NCBI RefSeq assembly: GCF_016428585.1
Contig: NZ_JAELVR010000001.1
Coordinates: 248,001-312,000, forward strand
Length of the DNA: 64,000 nt
Source of the DNA: Sedimentitalea arenosa
GTDB taxonomy: Bacteria; Pseudomonadota; Alphaproteobacteria; Rhodobacterales; Rhodobacteraceae
Direction of reading: 5' to 3'
Made by a program: the position numbers and the translations under genes. The notes under the pieces are model-generated. The model was given only the letters and a program-made list of their open reading frames with translations. It was not told the DNA's origin and ran no database searches. This document shows, in pieces, positions 1 through 16,316 of the stretch; position 1 is the first letter of the stretch; every line of letters begins with the position of its first letter.

Positions 1-1126
1 TGGGACGGTGGACATACAGGCTCATGTCCTCGGCCAGCCGGCCCTTGATGAAGATGTCACGCACCAGACCCTTGTAGCGTGGCCCGTTGAGGATCGTGTG
101 ATGCCCCACGTCGCCCCACATATTCGCGGTTCCGCGTGTGCCGAAATACCAGACGAACAGGCTCATGCTCCACCGTGTGCGCTTCAGTTTGCGCGTGGTC
201 CAGCGGCGGCGGGGCCGGTTGCGCAGCAGGTGGTCATAGGTGTGGCCGGAATCGGCGTTGGATACCACCACATCGGCCTCGACGGTTTCTTTCGTCGCCA
301 ATCTCACCCCTTGCGCGCGCCCGTCGCGTACCAGGATCTCGTCGACCTCGCAGCCAAGCCGCATCAGCCCGCCTTGGGACTCGATCACGCGCCCCATCGC
401 GTCCGCGATGGCGGCGACGCCGCCGATGGCGTAGTGCACGCCGAAGGCTTTTTCGAGGTGGCTGACGAGGATGTACATAGAGGTCACGTGAAACGGATCG
501 CCGCCGATGAAGAGCGGGTGAAAGCTGAAGGCCATGCGCAGGCGCGGATCACGGAACCGCTTGGCAGCATGGGCATGTACCGACCGATCCGCCCGCAGCA
601 TGGCAAATCGCGGCAGCACCTTCAGCAGATCACCCAGGCGGTGCATCGACCGGCGTCCCAGGTCCTCGAAGCCGAATTCGTAACGTGCCTCGCTGTCCCG
701 CAGGAACCGATCGTAGCCCGCGGCGTCATCGGGCGACAGGCGGCTCACCTCGGCGCGCATGGCATCCGTGTCCTGCTGTGCGGTGAAGCGCGAGCCGTCG
801 GGCCAGCGAATCTCGTAGAACGGGGTAAGCGGGCGCAGGTCGACATCTTTGTCGAACTCGCGCCCGCAGGCGGCCCAAAGTTCGCGAAACACCTGCGGTA
901 CGGTGACGATGGTCGGGCCGAGATCGAACCGGTGCCCGTCGCGATGCAGGCATGAGCCGCGCCCTCCGAGGCTGTCGAGCCTGTCGATCACGGTGACGCG
1001 GTAGCCTTTCGCGCCGAGCCGCATCGCGGCGGCCAGGCCGCCGAGTCCGGCGCCGACGACGACTGCATGGGGGCGGGCCTGGGCGTCCTGCGCAGCTTTC
1101 AACGTCGGATCAACACGTGTCATCAT
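1..1126 (-). CDS. crtI: Phytoene desaturase CrtI, C-terminus cut off by the window edge
   Basis: FAD-dependent desaturase that converts phytoene to neurosporene/lycopene in the spheroidene pathway, acting at the membrane. About 375 codons are visible; the family is usually near 500, so the C-terminal quarter lies outside the window. The N-terminus holds the dinucleotide-binding motif VVVGAGLGGLAAAMRL followed by an acidic residue after VTVID, and the middle holds the CrtI-typical stretch GDPFHVTSMYILVSHLEKAF. Two tandem ATG codons (1126-1124 and 1123-1121) can start it, behind a weak GGTG. It diverges from crtA across PpsR-type operators, one of which covers the start codon. CrtD is a related alternative, but the pairing with crtA favours CrtI. 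Confidence 0.88.
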   Translation of the reverse strand, partial: MMTRVDPTLKAAQDAQARPHAVVVGAGLGGLAAAMRLGAKGYRVTVIDRLDSLGGRGSCLHRDGHRFDLGPTIVTVPQVFRELWAACGREFDKDVDLRPLTPFYEIRWPDGSRFTAQQDTDAMRAEVSRLSPDDAAGYDRFLRDSEARYEFGFEDLGRRSMHRLGDLLKVLPRFAMLRADRSVHAHAAKRFRDPRLRMAFSFHPLFIGGDPFHVTSMYILVSHLEKAFGVHYAIGGVAAIADAMGRVIESQGGLMRLGCEVDEILVRDGRAQGVRLATKETVEADVVVSNADSGHTYDHLLRNRPRRRWTTRKLKRTRWSMSLFVWYFGTRGTANMWGDVGHHTILNGPRYKGLVRDIFIKGRLAEDMSLYVHRP

Positions 1127-4654: not shown

Positions 4655-5527
4655 ATGAACTGGGAGCGGGATCTGCCGACATGGCCGCTGTCGGAACTGT
4701 CCCGCCGCGTTCAAGTGCGCCCGCATCGCTGGCATGTTCAGGATGCGGGCTCCGGGCCGATGATCCTGCTCCTCCATGGCGCGGGCGCATCGACTCACAG
4801 CTGGCGTGACGTGCTGCCCCGGCTGGCGGAGATCCACCATGTGGCGGCGGTCGATCTGCCGGGGCAGGGGTTCACGCGGATGGGCGCGACCGGGCGCAAC
4901 GGGCTTGATACGATGGCGGAGGACCTGCTTGCGCTGTGCGAGGACCAGGGGTGGCGACCCGCGGCTTTGGTGGGGCATTCGGCCGGGGCCGCGCTGGCCC
5001 TGCGCCTGTCACACCGGTTGCGCGATGCTGGGGGTGCCCCGCCGCGTGTCATCGGGTTCAACGCTGCGCTCGAAGCTTTCGATGGTCTGGCCGGCTGGCT
5101 GTTTCCGCTGCTTGCCAAGTTTCTCGCCACGACACCGATGGCGGCGCGACTCTTCACGATGGGCGGCAGCCACGAAACCCGCGCCCGCGCATTGATCGAG
5201 AACACCGGCTCGTATCTCGATGACGTGGGGATCGCCCTCTATGCCCGGTTGATCGCGGATCGCGACCACGTCGATGCGACGCTGCGGATGATGTCGCAAT
5301 GGTCGCTTGAGTCGCTGCTGGAGGAGCTTCAGACCACGGTCGCGCCGACCCTGTTTTTGACCGGGGATCGGGACAAGGCGGTGCCACCACGCACTTCGGA
5401 CAGGGCGGCGGCGCGGATGCCCAATGCAGAGGTCCGGACCTGGACGGGTCTGGGGCACCTGATGCACGAGGAAGCCCCCGAACGCGCGGTGAACGAAATT
5501 CTCGGGTTCTTGCGCGCGTCTGAATGA
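4655..5527 (+). CDS. bchO: Alpha/beta hydrolase BchO, putative magnesium chelatase accessory protein
   Basis: Alpha/beta hydrolase found with bchI-bchD in photosynthesis gene clusters; its exact role is not established. 290 residues. The oxyanion-loop region LLLHGAGAS, the nucleophile elbow GHSAGAALAL, an acid strand FLTGDRDKAVPP and a terminal HLMHEEAPE histidine region are all visible. It starts one base after the bchD stop, so it is the last gene of the crtA operon; transcription ends at the hairpin at 5567-5595 shared with the convergent phasin gene. Confidence 0.93.
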   Translation: MNWERDLPTWPLSELSRRVQVRPHRWHVQDAGSGPMILLLHGAGASTHSWRDVLPRLAEIHHVAAVDLPGQGFTRMGATGRNGLDTMAEDLLALCEDQGWRPAALVGHSAGAALALRLSHRLRDAGGAPPRVIGFNAALEAFDGLAGWLFPLLAKFLATTPMAARLFTMGGSHETRARALIENTGSYLDDVGIALYARLIADRDHVDATLRMMSQWSLESLLEELQTTVAPTLFLTGDRDKAVPPRTSDRAAARMPNAEVRTWTGLGHLMHEEAPERAVNEILGFLRASE

Positions 5528-5566
5528 TCGCCATCGGGGCGGCTTGGTTTATGCGCAGGCTCGGAC

Positions 5567-5624: not shown

Positions 5625-6047
5625 TCAGGCCGCTTTGCCCGGACGATAGGTGTCGATGACTTCTTTCATCGGAGCATAGGCTTCTTTCGCCTTGTCCTTG
5701 GTCAGTTCGACGACTTCGCGTGCGTTTGCAGCGGTTGCCTCGATACGGGCATGTGCGTGCGCGGCGTGCAGGTCGAGCACGTCATTCAGGCACTTCGCCT
5801 GGAAGGTTTCCTTGCCGAGGTTGACGTATCCGTCAACAGCGTCCTTGGCATATCCAAGCAGCGCCTTGTCGACTTCGATGATGCCTTCAATCGCCTTGCG
5901 GCCCGAGGTGAAGTAGGCGCTGACGAGTCCGGTCACGGCCTTGCCGGCGTCGGCTGCGGTCGAAAAGGTCGCCTTGGCGGCTTCTTCTGCGGCGGCGGTT
6001 GCTTCGGTCTTGGTCGAGGCAGTGGATTTGGTGGTCTTCGTGCTCAT
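5625..6047 (-). CDS. Phasin family granule protein (PHA block 1)
   Basis: Amphipathic helical protein that coats polyhydroxyalkanoate granules. 140 residues. A low-complexity Lys/Thr/Ala N-terminus (residues 1-30) leads into a phasin_2-type helical body containing SAYFTSGRKAIEGIIEVDKALLGYAKD. It has no signal peptide. The ATG at 6047 follows AAAGGAG with good spacing. Two PhaR-type operator motifs lie 49-80 bp upstream and a terminator follows, so it is a single-gene unit separate from the phaJ-phaC-phaZ-DUF445 run behind it. It is a different sequence from the second phasin at 21890. Confidence 0.9.
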   Translation of the reverse strand: MSTKTTKSTASTKTEATAAAEEAAKATFSTAADAGKAVTGLVSAYFTSGRKAIEGIIEVDKALLGYAKDAVDGYVNLGKETFQAKCLNDVLDLHAAHAHARIEATAANAREVVELTKDKAKEAYAPMKEVIDTYRPGKAA

Positions 6048-11268: not shown

Positions 11269-11694
11269 ATGCGTCTTTTTGGATTGAAAAACTGCGATAC
11301 CTGCCGCAAGGCGTTGAAATCTCTGCCAGATGCACGGTTCATCGATGTGCGCAGCGACGGCGTGCCGGAAGAGTTGCTCGTTTCCGCGCTCGATCAATTT
11401 GGCGACGCTTTGCTCAACACGCGGTCAACCACATGGCGGGGCCTTGATCAGAACGAGCGCGCGGAACCGCCCCTGGATCTGCTGAAGAAACATCCGACGC
11501 TGATGAAACGACCGCTTATCGAGTCGCACGACGGGCAGCTGTTTCTTGGCTGGACCGCCGAGGTCAGGAGCGCCCTCAACGTCGACAGAGCCACGACGGA
11601 TCAGGCCAGGCGGCCCATGATCCGGTCGACGGAGAGCGGGCCGGCCCCTTTGACCACGATGATGAGCAGCACGGTGATCCACAGCAGACGTTGA
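11269..11694 (+). CDS. ArsC/Spx family (arsenate reductase-like) protein with C-terminal run-on
   Basis: Thioredoxin-fold protein with the redox motif CDTCRK near the N-terminus and the ArsC-type segments LLNTRSTTWRGL and HPTLMKRPLIE. Members are usually about 110-115 residues, ending shortly after LGWTAEVRSAL; here the frame continues about 30 residues (RATTDQARRPMIRST onward) until 11694 and overlaps the convergent bufD gene by 94 bp. The extension has no family character, suggesting loss of the normal stop. Start chosen at ATG 11269, after GGAGGG; a GTG at 11263 is in frame. The true substrate of this subfamily (often called YffB-like) is unknown. Confidence 0.83.
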   Translation: MRLFGLKNCDTCRKALKSLPDARFIDVRSDGVPEELLVSALDQFGDALLNTRSTTWRGLDQNERAEPPLDLLKKHPTLMKRPLIESHDGQLFLGWTAEVRSALNVDRATTDQARRPMIRSTESGPAPLTTMMSSTVIHSRR

Positions 11695-12149
11695 TCGAGG
11701 ATCAGGCTGCCTGACAGGCCGTCAAACCACGCGCCAAGGGTTTGGGGGTCTGATGCGCCATGCCCGATGACGTCGGTTGCCGATTGCATCAGGATGAAGC
11801 CGATCATCCCGATGGACGCGAGGCGGCTCAGCAGACCGATCACGATCAGGGCCGGCAGGATGAATTCCGCCCATGTTCCGGCAAGGGCGACGGCCCAGTG
11901 GAACACGCCGAGTTGCGAGCTGTCATAGCCGGCCGCTTCCATGGCGCGCGGGAAGATCTGAACATAGGCACCGTCGGACGGGAACAGGATGCCGAAAAAC
12001 CCGTCGCCCAGCTTGGTGGCCGCGGATTTCCAGAAATAGACCAGCAGCACAGCCGCGAAGGTGAACCGGGCAAGCGTCGGCAGGATAAAGCCCGATTGCC
12101 TGTCCAGCCAGTCGAACAGGGCGTTGTGCAGCGTGGCGAGCTTGGTCAT
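11601..12149 (-). CDS. bufD: DoxX family membrane protein, BufD of the bufferin operon
   Basis: 182-residue integral membrane protein of the DoxX/DoxD family with about four hydrophobic helices (for example FTFAAVLLVYFW, FILPALIVIGLL, LLWITVLLIIVV). Starts 3 nt after the bufC stop, closing the DUF2282-DUF692-DUF2063-DoxX gene order that defines bufferin operons. In that system the DoxX member is thought to serve export or membrane steps, but its role is not settled. Its 3' end overlaps the run-on of the convergent ArsC-like frame. Confidence 0.87.
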   Translation of the reverse strand: MTKLATLHNALFDWLDRQSGFILPTLARFTFAAVLLVYFWKSAATKLGDGFFGILFPSDGAYVQIFPRAMEAAGYDSSQLGVFHWAVALAGTWAEFILPALIVIGLLSRLASIGMIGFILMQSATDVIGHGASDPQTLGAWFDGLSGSLILDQRLLWITVLLIIVVKGAGPLSVDRIMGRLA

Positions 12150-12152
12150 CGT

Positions 12153-12908
12153 TCAGTCTTTCGGTGTGAGGGAAATCAGCGCCTGGCCCGAAAGAAGCAG
12201 GGCCAGCGGCGCGGAGAGATCGAACCGGGGATGGTCGTCCAGAGCGAGGTCATAGGCCGCGCCGATCGTCTCACCCTGCCACAACGCGGCCAGCCAGGTC
12301 GCGGCTCCCGGAGGCAAGGCGTACGGAACCGGATCGAACCCGGGCCGCGTGATCAGAACGTCCTGCGCAACCGGAACAGGTTTCGGCGCGTTCTGCTCTG
12401 TGTTGAAGCGCCAGATGCCGTGGATCGGCCAGTTCGACCGCAACACGTTGGCAGCGGGCGCAAGGGTCACTCTGCAGTCCATCAAGCGTTCGGGTGACAT
12501 CTTGCCCAGCGTCGCGGGATCGATCGCCTCGCTGTCGGCGGCATGATACGAGCGGCGCAGCGCCAGTTCCAGCCGTGCGACATCGCCGAGATATCCGAGA
12601 TGTGCCAGTTGCGGCAGGTTCGAAAGGAAGTCGGGAAAATTCTTGCCGAAACGTATCATGAGCGGCGAGTCGGGCGGGTTGTCGCACAGGTAGAGGCGGG
12701 CGAGACCGTTGATGTTCTCGCGTCCGAGAACCCTCGTGATTACCGGGAATCCGGTTGCCAACGCGTCCGTCAGCGAGACGACGACATTGTTGCGATAGAC
12801 GTTGAAACGCCGTGTGGTCGGACGGCCGTTGCCATCGGTCAACCCGTCTGGGACAGGCTGTGCGGGATCCAGCAGCGCATCGCAAAAATGGGCTTGCGAC
12901 ACTGTCAT
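12153..12908 (-). CDS. bufC: DUF2063 protein BufC, partner of the MNIO enzyme
   Basis: 251 residues with the DUF2063 N-terminal hallmarks FNVYRNNVVVSLTDALATGFPVI region and a central FPDFL... helical part. In bufferin biosynthesis the DUF2063 protein acts as recognition partner that helps the DUF692 enzyme modify cysteines of the precursor. The ATG at 12908 overlaps the bufB stop (ATGA), consistent with stoichiometric production of the BufB-BufC pair. No metal-binding signature of its own is evident. Confidence 0.9.
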   Translation of the reverse strand: MTVSQAHFCDALLDPAQPVPDGLTDGNGRPTTRRFNVYRNNVVVSLTDALATGFPVITRVLGRENINGLARLYLCDNPPDSPLMIRFGKNFPDFLSNLPQLAHLGYLGDVARLELALRRSYHAADSEAIDPATLGKMSPERLMDCRVTLAPAANVLRSNWPIHGIWRFNTEQNAPKPVPVAQDVLITRPGFDPVPYALPPGAATWLAALWQGETIGAAYDLALDDHPRFDLSAPLALLLSGQALISLTPKD

Positions 12909-13762
12909 GCCTGCACACGGCTCAACGCGGCCTGCGCGCGTTCGGCTTCCGCACCTAGCACCGGCCAGTCGGGCACGTCATTGTCCCACTCGACCAGAAC
13001 AGGCTTGGGGCCGGTCCGCTCCAGCACGATATCGAGTAGGCGCCAGACCGGGTCGATCACCGGGGCTCCGTGGTTGTCGATCAGAAGCGGTGCGCCGGCA
13101 TCGTCGGCATCCTCGTCGTGTCCGCCAACGTGAATCTCGCCAACCTCGTGCAGCGGGTAGGCGTCGATATAGGCCTGGGGCGACGTGCCGAGATTGGTTG
13201 CCGAGACGAACACGTTGTTCACGTCCAGAAGCAGGCCGCAGCCGGTCCGCCGGCAGAGCTCCGCAAGGAAGTCGGTTTCACTCCAGGTGCTGGTGTCGAA
13301 GGCCAGATAGCTCGACGGGTTTTCAAGGAGCATGCGTCGGCCCAGTCGCTCCTGAACCTGGTCGATATGCGCGGCGACCCTGTTGAGCGTGTCCGCCGTG
13401 TAGGGCAGGGGGAGCAGATCGTTGAAAAACGCGCCGCCATGGGTCGACCACGCCAGATGTTCGGAAAAGCTCGCAGGCTTCAGCCAACCCACCAGATGCG
13501 CGAGACGGTCAAGATGCGCCTCGTCAAGCGGGCTCTCGCCGCCAATGGACAAGCCGACACCGTGCACCGAAATCGGAAAACGCTCCGACAGGCTTCGCAG
13601 TTGGGCGAGCGGTCGGCCGCCATCGCCCATGTAGTTCTCAGCGTGGATCTCCAGCCAGCATACTGGGCCTCGATCGCGGCCGATATCTGCAAAGTGTTGC
13701 GGCTTGTATCCGACGCCCGGTGCCGGTGGCAGTGTGTCCTTGCGGCTTGTGACATCCAGCAT
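12905..13762 (-). CDS. bufB: DUF692/MNIO multinuclear iron oxidase BufB
   Basis: TIM-barrel enzyme of the DUF692 (MNIO) family, 285 residues. Family members use two or three irons to modify cysteines of ribosomally made peptides; bufferin enzymes form thiooxazoles. Diagnostic stretches are WLEIHAENYM near residue 35, VHGVGLSIGG, FSEHLAWS, LLENPSSYL, LLLDVNNVFVSA and EIHVGGHDE, which supply His, Glu, Asp and Asn metal ligands. It lies 69 nt downstream of the bufA precursor, with a small GGGG-ATAGT-CCCC hairpin between, and overlaps bufC. Confidence 0.94.
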   Translation of the reverse strand: MLDVTSRKDTLPPAPGVGYKPQHFADIGRDRGPVCWLEIHAENYMGDGGRPLAQLRSLSERFPISVHGVGLSIGGESPLDEAHLDRLAHLVGWLKPASFSEHLAWSTHGGAFFNDLLPLPYTADTLNRVAAHIDQVQERLGRRMLLENPSSYLAFDTSTWSETDFLAELCRRTGCGLLLDVNNVFVSATNLGTSPQAYIDAYPLHEVGEIHVGGHDEDADDAGAPLLIDNHGAPVIDPVWRLLDIVLERTGPKPVLVEWDNDVPDWPVLGAEAERAQAALSRVQA

Positions 13763-13831
13763 GACGGGCCCGACAGTCGTGAAAGGGGTTGCCGGGCGGG
13801 GGGATAGTCCCCGGCCCGGTCTGTTGATCGC

Positions 13832-14134
13832 TTATGCGGGGAGGTCCCGCTCGAGCGCGCTCAGAGAGCCCTTGCGCTCGGTGCCGTCGGCCATCGCCGG
13901 CAAGTCCATGCTTTCGCAGGTTCCGGCATCGACCAGCGTCCAGGCGTTGCCCTGGTAGTCGACGGTCGACGTGCCCGCGCAGGTGGTGCCGGGGCCGGCG
14001 GCGCAGTCGTTCTGGCCGGCCAGGGACACGCCATAGCACTTTTCCTTGGATTGGGCGCTGACACTGCTGCTGGTGGCCGCCATCGCGGCGGCGACGGCTC
14101 CGGCGACGGCGATGGTCTTGACGGTGGTGGACAT
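13832..14134 (-). CDS. bufA: DUF2282 bufferin precursor BufA
   Basis: 100-residue secreted precursor peptide. A signal peptide (about residues 1-27, ending SVSA before Gln28) precedes a core with four cysteines: Cys33 (EKCYGV), Cys44 (NDC), Cys52 (TTCAG) and Cys73 (GTCE). This spacing fits DUF2282 bufferin 1 peptides, whose central cysteines are oxidised by the MNIO enzyme and which bind copper in the periplasm. The residues after Cys73 form an unusual charged tail ([15 protein letters not shown]). The ATG at 14134 follows GGGAGA. First gene of bufABCD. Confidence 0.9.
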
Positions 14135-14303
14135 GAGGGTCTCCCGGTCTGTTTCGAAAATTGCGATGCTGCCAGCGTATTGACACCAGGCAAGGCCGTG
14201 AAGTCACGAGCCCGTGTCTCACGGTCCCGTCAATGACCGTGACGTTTCACACCGCCCGAGCCTTGGCAAACCGGGCGAATCGACCGGGAATGTTTCAAAC
14301 CGG

Positions 14304-14328
14304 CCCGGGCCGCGGAGCCGCGGCCGGG
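14304..14328 (-). terminator. Hairpin after thrS
   Basis: Near-perfect GC stem (12 bases against 11, one bulged G, 2 nt loop) beginning 9 nt after the thrS stop on the minus strand. It lacks a T-run. Likely 3' end of thrS, separating it from bufA. Confidence 0.55.
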
Positions 14329-14336
14329 CGCTTGTG

Positions 14337-16316
14337 TTACAACTGGTCCGGCGGTGTCGCCTCGCGTCCGAGCGCCTGTGCAACATCCGCCAGCGGCTGG
14401 ACACTGGTCTGCTTCTCGCCAAGCCGGCGAACCGATACGGTCCGTTCCTCGACCTCGCGCGCGCCCACGGCGAGGATCACCGGAACCTTGCCGACGGAGT
14501 GTTCGCGGACCTTGTAGTTGATCTTCTCGTTCCGGATGTCGGCCTCGGCGCGCACGCCGGCGGCCTGAAGCTCGGCGACGACCTCGTGCACGTAGTCATC
14601 CGCTTCGGAGGTGATCGAGGCCACGACCACCTGTCGAGGGGCCAGCCAGAACGGCAGCTTGCCCTCCCAGTTCTCGATGAGAATTCCGATGAAGCGTTCG
14701 AACGAGCCGAGGCAGGCGCGGTGCAGCATATAGGGGCGATGCTTGTCGCCATCCGCGCCGATATAGCTGGCGCCGAGCCGCTCCGGCAGGTTGGGGTCCA
14801 CCTGGAAGGTGCCGCATTGCCAGACCCGCCCGATCGCATCGGTCAGGTAGAAGTCGAGCTTGGGGCCGTAGAACGCGCCATCGCCCGGCTCCAGCACGTA
14901 GTCGCGCCCAACCGCCTTGATCGCGTTTTCCAGCGCCCCTTCGACATGGTCCCAGCTTTCGTCAGAGCCGACGCGCTTTTCGGGCCGGGTGGCAAAACGG
15001 ATTTCGAATTCCGGAAAGCCAAGTTCGCGATAGACGCCAGCGAGGAAGTCGATGAAGCGCGCACACTCCTCCTGAATCTGATCCTCGGTGCAGAAGATAT
15101 GCGCGTCGTCCTGGGTGAACCCGCGCACCCGCATGATGCCGTGCAGGGCACCGGACGGTTCGAACCGCGCGCAGGAGCCGAATTCGGCCAGCCGCAAGGG
15201 CAGGTCGCGATAGCTTTTCAGGCCCTGGTTGAAGACCTGCACGTGACAGGGGCAGTTCATCGGCTTGAGCGCGTTGATCCGCGTTTCGGCGCGGTTCTTG
15301 GCGCTGGCATCATCGTGTTCCCCATCCCGGCTCTCGTCGACTTCGACGATGAACATGTGATGCTGATACTTGTCCCAGTGGCCGGATTTTTCCCAAAGCT
15401 TGCGGTCCACGACCTGCGGCGTGTTGATCTCGTGATAGCCGCCGGCGCGCTGCTTGCGGCGCATGTAGTCCTGCAATTGGGTGTAGATCGTCCAGCCGTT
15501 CGGGTGCCAGAACACCTGACCCGGCGCTTCTTCCTGCATGTGAAACAGATCCATCTCGCGGCCCAGCTTGCGGTGGTCCCGTTTGGCAGCCTCTTCCAGC
15601 ATGTGCAGGTGGGCCTTCAGCTTTTCCTTGCTGGTGAAGGCGACGCCGTAGATACGCTGCAGCATCGCGCGGTCGCTGTCACCACGCCAATAGGCGCCGG
15701 CGATGCTCATCAGCTTGAACGCGTCGCCCGGAACCTGCCCGGTGTGTTGCAGGTGCGGCCCGCGGCACAGGTCCTGCCAGTGCCCGTGCCAATACATGCG
15801 CAGCGGCTCGTCGCCCGGAATCGCCTCGATCAGCTCGACCTTGTAGGGTTCGTTGTTGGCCTCGTAGAACTTGATTGCCCGGTCGCGGTCCCAGACCTCG
15901 GTGGTCACCGGATCGCGCTTGTTGATGATCTCCTTCATCTTCTTTTCGATCAGGCCCAGGTCTTCGGGCGTGAACGGCTCTGCGCGGTCGAAATCGTAGT
16001 ACCAGCCGTTTTCGATGACGGGTCCGATGGTGACCTTGGTGGCGGGCCAGATTTCCTGCACGGCGCGGGCCATGATATGAGCCAGATCATGGCGCACCAG
16101 CTCGTTGGCCTGCGCCTCGTCCTTCATGGTGTGAATGGCGATGCTGGCGTCACTGTCGATCGGCCAGGCCAGATCCCAATGACGACCGCCGACCGTGGCG
16201 CTGATCGCCTTCTTGGCGAGCGAGGTCGAGATGTCTGCAGCGACCTCGGCCGCGGTGACACCCGCGTCGTAGGATCGTGCATTGCCATCGGGAAGGGTGA
16301 GGGTGATCTGAGCCAT
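14337..16316 (-). CDS. thrS: Threonine--tRNA ligase
   Basis: Class II aminoacyl-tRNA synthetase charging tRNA-Thr; cytoplasmic. 659 residues, normal length. Visible in order: N-terminal TGS domain ([19 protein letters not shown]), editing domain with HDLAH and CRGPHL, catalytic core with [10 protein letters not shown] and [23 protein letters not shown] motif 2, zinc ligands Cys and His, and the anticodon-binding domain ([15 protein letters not shown]). Start chosen at ATG 16316 after GAGGAGG because the TGS domain begins there; the open frame extends upstream without homology. Confidence 0.97.

Follow-up and report, generated by a model that had tools for sequence, protein, structure and literature searches.

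Bufferins of the Buf1 type are described as peptides with four cysteines, of which the central pair is modified and the outer pair forms a disulphide (PMC12452194), and the formation of a 5-thiooxazole is reported to remove 4 Da per cysteine (PMC13097082). In Caulobacter exposed to copper stress, the buf genes are reported to be driven by sigma-F (PMC8224329). A DoxX gene is frequent in Buf1 clusters, though not obligatory. The preliminary description of the locus analyzed here held that such systems are largely unstudied in its order, the Rhodobacterales. No bufferin study in this order was among the literature matches listed, which is weak evidence of absence, and to that extent the statement stands; it needs qualifying in that DUF692 clusters of Sulfitobacter, Paracoccus, and Rhodoalgimonas are in print, described as RiPP-, bacteriocin-, or methanobactin-like, with no copper mentioned in the sections available (PMC11278168, PMC8273931, PMC10608839), and DUF692 transcripts are reported from marine biofilms (PMC11278168).

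In the stretch of DNA that we analyzed, 64,000 nucleotides long and called the window throughout, an intact four-gene operon, bufA-bufB-bufC-bufD, lies on the minus strand at positions 11601-14134. The first gene, bufA (13832..14134), encodes a Buf1 (DUF2282) precursor of 100 amino acids with cysteines at residues 33, 44, 52, and 73; bufB (12905..13762) encodes an MNIO (DUF692) bufferin maturase of 285 amino acids, bufC (12153..12908) a DUF2063 (PME-type 1) partner protein of 251 amino acids, and bufD (11601..12149) a DoxX-family membrane protein of 182 amino acids, all on the minus strand. There is a 4-nt overlap of bufB with bufC and a 3-nt spacer between bufC and bufD, and the 69-nt gap between bufA and bufB is the sole sizeable one within the operon. 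The DUF2282-DUF692-DUF2063-DoxX order and the four cysteines in the translated bufA bear out the preliminary description, which had claimed a complete bufABCD operon with precursor cysteines at these positions. Three features go beyond that description: an element upstream of bufA, a stem-loop after it, and a conserved motif in the BufA tail.

The assignments of BufA, BufB, and BufC are secure. BufA scores 87 bits against the DUF2282 profile (cutoff, 22.4), BufB scores 346.4 against MbnB_TglH_ChrH (cutoff, 25) and 369.9 against the NCBIfam model MNIO_BufB (cutoff, 310), and BufC scores 80.3 against DUF2063 (cutoff, 27.2); BufB is also related to 3bww (E, 4.4e-41). Among NCBIfam models, BufA reaches no BufA model (BufA2, 20.2 bits versus a cutoff of 60), BufC falls under the cutoff of its nearest model, HvfC (53.6 bits versus 142), and BufD falls under that of HvfX. 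Taken alone, the window BufD scores 19.8 against DoxX, under the Pfam cutoff of 23.6; the DoxX name holds because all 52 aligned BufD sequences, the window's included, match DoxX at an E value of ≤0.01. Its predicted model is mostly helical (mean pLDDT, 87.1). Neither the BufA model nor the BufD model matched a PDB fold with an E value of ≤0.001, and searches of PDB sequences returned two unrelated matches only for the BufA profile (E, about 0.4), two unrelated matches only for BufC (E, 0.6-0.7), and none for the BufC and BufD profiles. BufA has a putative signal peptide, judged by eye to be Sec-type and cut after VSA27, with a similar one in its relatives, and the four-cysteine core is nearly unchanged across them. 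As a whole, the locus is best explained, with high probability, as a Buf1-type bufferin operon.

Of 244 genomes sampled from the order, 184 contain DUF2282, and all those listed belong to the window's family; at the level of the class, 135 of 385 sampled genomes contain it. The Buf1 cluster is standard and not rare in the order. The window genome itself carries a single DUF2282 gene and a single MNIO gene. For comparison, we used 80 named loci that were found with BufB as the best 80 matches listed in a capped scan and are hence close relatives, related by descent, so that counts over them are not independent. By tblastn, bufA, bufB, and bufC are present in conserved order in 80/80 of these loci, bufD in 79/80, and thrS in 78/80, with arsC-like (75/80) and csp (74/80) genes as recurring neighbours, and we infer that the operon has been inherited vertically. 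All 80 loci yield a four-cysteine BufA (81 in all), although the search pattern itself demanded four cysteines, so that the result is informative only in that no locus failed. In one of the loci, L100 of Shimia marina, bufA occurs twice in tandem (5252-5557 and 5688-5990, plus strand), and both copies are RDLP-tailed.

The redox protein that had been noted beside the operon corresponds to an ArsC-family open reading frame (ORF) at 11269-11694 on the plus strand, which does adjoin bufD; it is convergent with bufD, an orientation for which we rejected it as an operon member and which does not support it as a partner. It covers the 3' end of bufD antisense by 94 nt and is longer than the 105-amino-acid copy of L036; in L035, the arsC-like match overlaps bufD too. 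In two loci, a 122-amino-acid hydrophobic ORF lies between bufD and arsC, opposite to bufD (L036:8142-8510 and L099:8180-8548, both minus strand). Many of the 80 loci have a gap of similar size between bufD and arsC; in the window, such an ORF would not fit. Two photosynthetic reaction-centre (Photo_RC) genes (L033, L034; G000:C1:233781-235447) lie 12.5 to 14 kb left of the window start, so the earlier portrayal of the host as a phototroph is fair.

NrsF is absent from the window genome, and no sigma-F-like promoter of the form GTAAC-N16-18-CGAA was found upstream of the window bufA. Sigma-F control in this genome is thereby ruled out, and copper induction is not simply transferable from Caulobacter. 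Since Buf1 clusters both with and without sigma-F genes are described in print (PMC12452194), the lack of sigF-nrsF is not in itself new. A promoter that is not of the sigma-F type would also suit a bufferin that acts chiefly on a different metal, or in oxidative or envelope stress, and not in copper excess. Operons in other species are reported to respond to Au, Ag, Cr, and Cd besides Cu (PMC8224329, PMC3511200), and doxX genes have been suggested as a sign of other stresses (PMC12452194); however, Caulobacter Buf1 is described in the latter source as binding Cu and aiding growth in excess Cu, and the near constancy of the four-cysteine core also argues against such a role, which we consider unlikely.

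Upstream of bufA, 98 to 70 nt before the gene in the window, is a tandem-dyad element, TGAC-N6-GTGA-N2-CAC-N6-GTGA (14204..14232, minus strand), which we propose as an activator site; 24 nt after it comes TACGCT (14174..14179, minus strand), a proposed −10 hexamer of the form TAnnnT. The element, with the consensus T.AC-N6-G(T)GA-N2-CAC-N6-GTGA, is found by best match in 77/77 upstream regions, comprising 76 named loci and the window; the other 4/80 named loci (L062, L082, L090, and L112) were left out owing to a contig end or the parsing filter. With each site taken as the best seed match (19 to 33 of 34 positions agreeing), positions T0, A2, C3, G10, A17, C18, G25, and T26 are invariant in 77/77. 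A regular expression finds the element in 74/77 regions, all except L100, L109, and L110, and in each of these 74 sites the pairs 3/10, 17/26, and 18/25 are complementary. The two dyads lie 15 bp apart within the element, and a weaker T.AC is found 10 bp upstream of it. TAnnnT occurs at +22..27 in 63/74 sites, compared with a mean of 6.0 and a maximum of 12 in shuffled sequences, and its start lies 24 or 25 nt past the element in 62/74. Judged from sequence, this spacing is the layout of an activator-dependent promoter. A scan for sigma-70 consensus promoters found none, which says little given that 0.1 was expected by chance.

The element is nearly confined to bufA. In the window genome, one copy is found at up to 3 mismatches of the window-type pattern, and one by a looser minimal pattern. 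Across 121 genomes of the order, the minimal pattern gave 53 exact matches in 51 genomes, versus 7 for the reversed pattern. By coordinates, the element is within 450 bp of bufA in 46 of these 51 genomes, and by inspection it is also at bufA in G118, one of the 29/30 fetched loci that have bufA downstream. Copies elsewhere were found in G048, G100, and G110, plus second matches in G021 and G077, and the match in G105 was counted in neither group. When the order loci were scored with a weight matrix built from the named loci, 66 of 90 outscored every one of the 900 single-base shuffles, at least one of these 90 loci (L205) being of a species in the training set; 24/90 lack a good element. Among 69 class loci (one of 70 was dropped), none exceeded the class maximum of the shuffles and 2 exceeded its 99% level.

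Dyad symmetry also suits dimeric repressors, and the element could instead be a repressor operator or part of a transcribed leader. We find this improbable, to much the same degree as a role outside copper excess: with TAnnnT where it is in those 62/74 sites, the end of the element falls roughly at the expected start of a −35, and an Rfam scan of positions 13700-14420 gave three matches, none at the gathering score. The best of these, c-di-GMP-I-GGC (22.5 versus 59), is on the opposite strand just after thrS and was taken as chance. It seems very unlikely that CenR (TGA-N8-TGA) or another known envelope regulator binds the element: TGA-N8-TGA is present in the window copy and in 50/74 sites, and activated CenR operons are reported to carry sites upstream of the −35 (PMC9275681), but these six bases are easily met by chance, 24/74 sites break them, the element is longer and dyadic, and no buf gene was found in the available text of PMC9275681; CenR of Rhodobacter sphaeroides is only a lead. 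ChvI was rejected, its consensus, given as TTGC-N3-GCAA (PMC9731502), being unlike the element.

NrsF scores over the cutoff in 11 of the 121 order genomes, and these share only one genome, G067, with the 46 that have the element at bufA, and its NrsF lies on a different contig. Were the two independent, an overlap that small would have a probability of 0.003 among 90 DUF2282 genomes, a figure that relatedness weakens. A relaxed sigma-F pattern, GTAAC-N16-18-CGAA, which was chosen after seeing the sequences, is found in 9/24 element-poor order loci, 0/66 element-rich order loci, and 16/70 class loci, and the strict published pattern, GTAACC-N15-17-CGAA, is found in 0/90 order loci (0 element-poor and 0 element-rich) and 5/70 class loci. 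From these counts, it seems that the two promoter types substitute for one another within the order.

Near the C terminus of BufA is the motif (G/P)(S/A)L-x4-RD(L/I)P, present in 82/82 BufA sequences including that of the window, where residues 89-100 are encoded at 13835..13870 on the minus strand. The stretch between the last cysteine and the motif is mostly of length 15 (69 sequences) or 10 (11 sequences), one L100 copy being misparsed in this table. The codons for the invariant residues vary synonymously, so it is the protein sequence that is conserved. We also surveyed loci from 90 of the 184 order genomes and 70 loci from positives outside the family; because the 30 top-scoring loci per group were taken and the rest were hand-picked, the fractions are rough. 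The strict motif ends 75/90 order proteins, with a near form (RDMA) in 4 and, among the other 11, RDLP followed by an extension in 5; outside the family, the motif is found in 14/70, plus 4 near forms. In L030, L213, L214, L219, and L222, BufA runs past RDLP into Met-containing extensions. The charged tail after Cys73 had been called unusual; it exists, but it is the norm in the clade, and the counts of 82/82 and 75/90 rule it out as a peculiarity of the window genome. In the AlphaFold2 model of BufA (overall pLDDT, 72.6; pTM, 0.55), the tail has a pLDDT of 84 over residues 81-90 and 81 over residues 91-100. The RDLP tail may be a working part of the precursor, either in recognition by BufBC or in folding; the signal peptide is reported, on preliminary evidence, to belong to the recognition sequence (PMC12452194).

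The bufA-bufB gap contains a stem-loop (13792..13819, minus strand), 12 nt past the stop codon of bufA. Stems of at least 9 pairs, with one mismatch allowed, occur in 67/80 such gaps, compared with 1.8% of dinucleotide shuffles, and 53/80 gaps exceed the best of 30 of their own shuffles; L100, with its 10-nt gap, was left out of this count. The best stems comprise 75 distinct sequences and start at a median of 16.5 nt past the bufA stop. Fold energy has a z score below −2 in 54/81 gaps (single-base shuffles), that of the window being unexceptional at only −1.1. In the wider survey, a stem of 9 pairs within 75 nt was found in 73/90 order loci and 15/70 class loci, leaving 17/90 order loci without one. 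No T run accompanies the window stem-loop, and a search of the window for terminator-like sites gave none, so termination on the one hand and mRNA stabilisation or processing on the other are equally likely; in each case, bufA would be favoured relative to bufBCD.

We propose that transcription would start from the TAnnnT promoter, activated by a candidate regulator at the tandem dyad, and that the stem-loop would keep bufA mRNA in excess over bufBCD. BufA would be made with its signal peptide, and, by homology to the Caulobacter system, from which thiooxazole chemistry, copper binding, and function are all inferred, a BufB-BufC complex would turn the two central cysteines (44 and 52) into thiooxazoles, while Cys33 and Cys73 would form a disulphide. 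The mature peptide, of about 73 residues, would then bind copper in the periplasm and buffer its excess, with BufD as a presumed accessory membrane protein. More broadly, we suggest tentatively, as possible rather than probable, that the bufferin operon has been rewired in much of the Rhodobacterales, with a dedicated activator at the near bufA-only tandem dyad in place of sigma-F/NrsF, a stem-loop setting precursor excess, and a C-terminal RDLP module acting in maturation or in handling within the periplasm. Sigma-F controls the best studied bufferin operon; a near bufA-only element across much of the order is a direct bait for another sensor, and a clade-specific promoter makes its regulator findable. 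The conserved tail and stem-loop are small precursor-handling features that can easily be mutated and tested.

Among known systems, the captophorins (fontiphorin, oxazolin, and gonophorin) are likewise described as having an MNIO and a PME1 partner that place 5-thiooxazole on cysteines (PMC13097082), but their precursors are reported there to be of the EGKCG type, not DUF2282 as in the window. The gig operons of Cupriavidus metallidurans and Legionella pneumophila are named bufferin clusters (PMC12452194), a likeness taken from that description. Closest is the Caulobacter Buf1 operon (CCNA_03363-03366; CC3254-CC3257), which is reported with the same gene content and order (PMC3511200, PMC8224329) and whose precursor is described as having four cysteines, like that of the window, and a signal peptide (PMC12452194), which is putative in the window BufA. 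The window operon differs from it in the absence of NrsF from the genome and of GTAAC-N16-18-CGAA upstream, in having another conserved element, and in its long RDLP tail.
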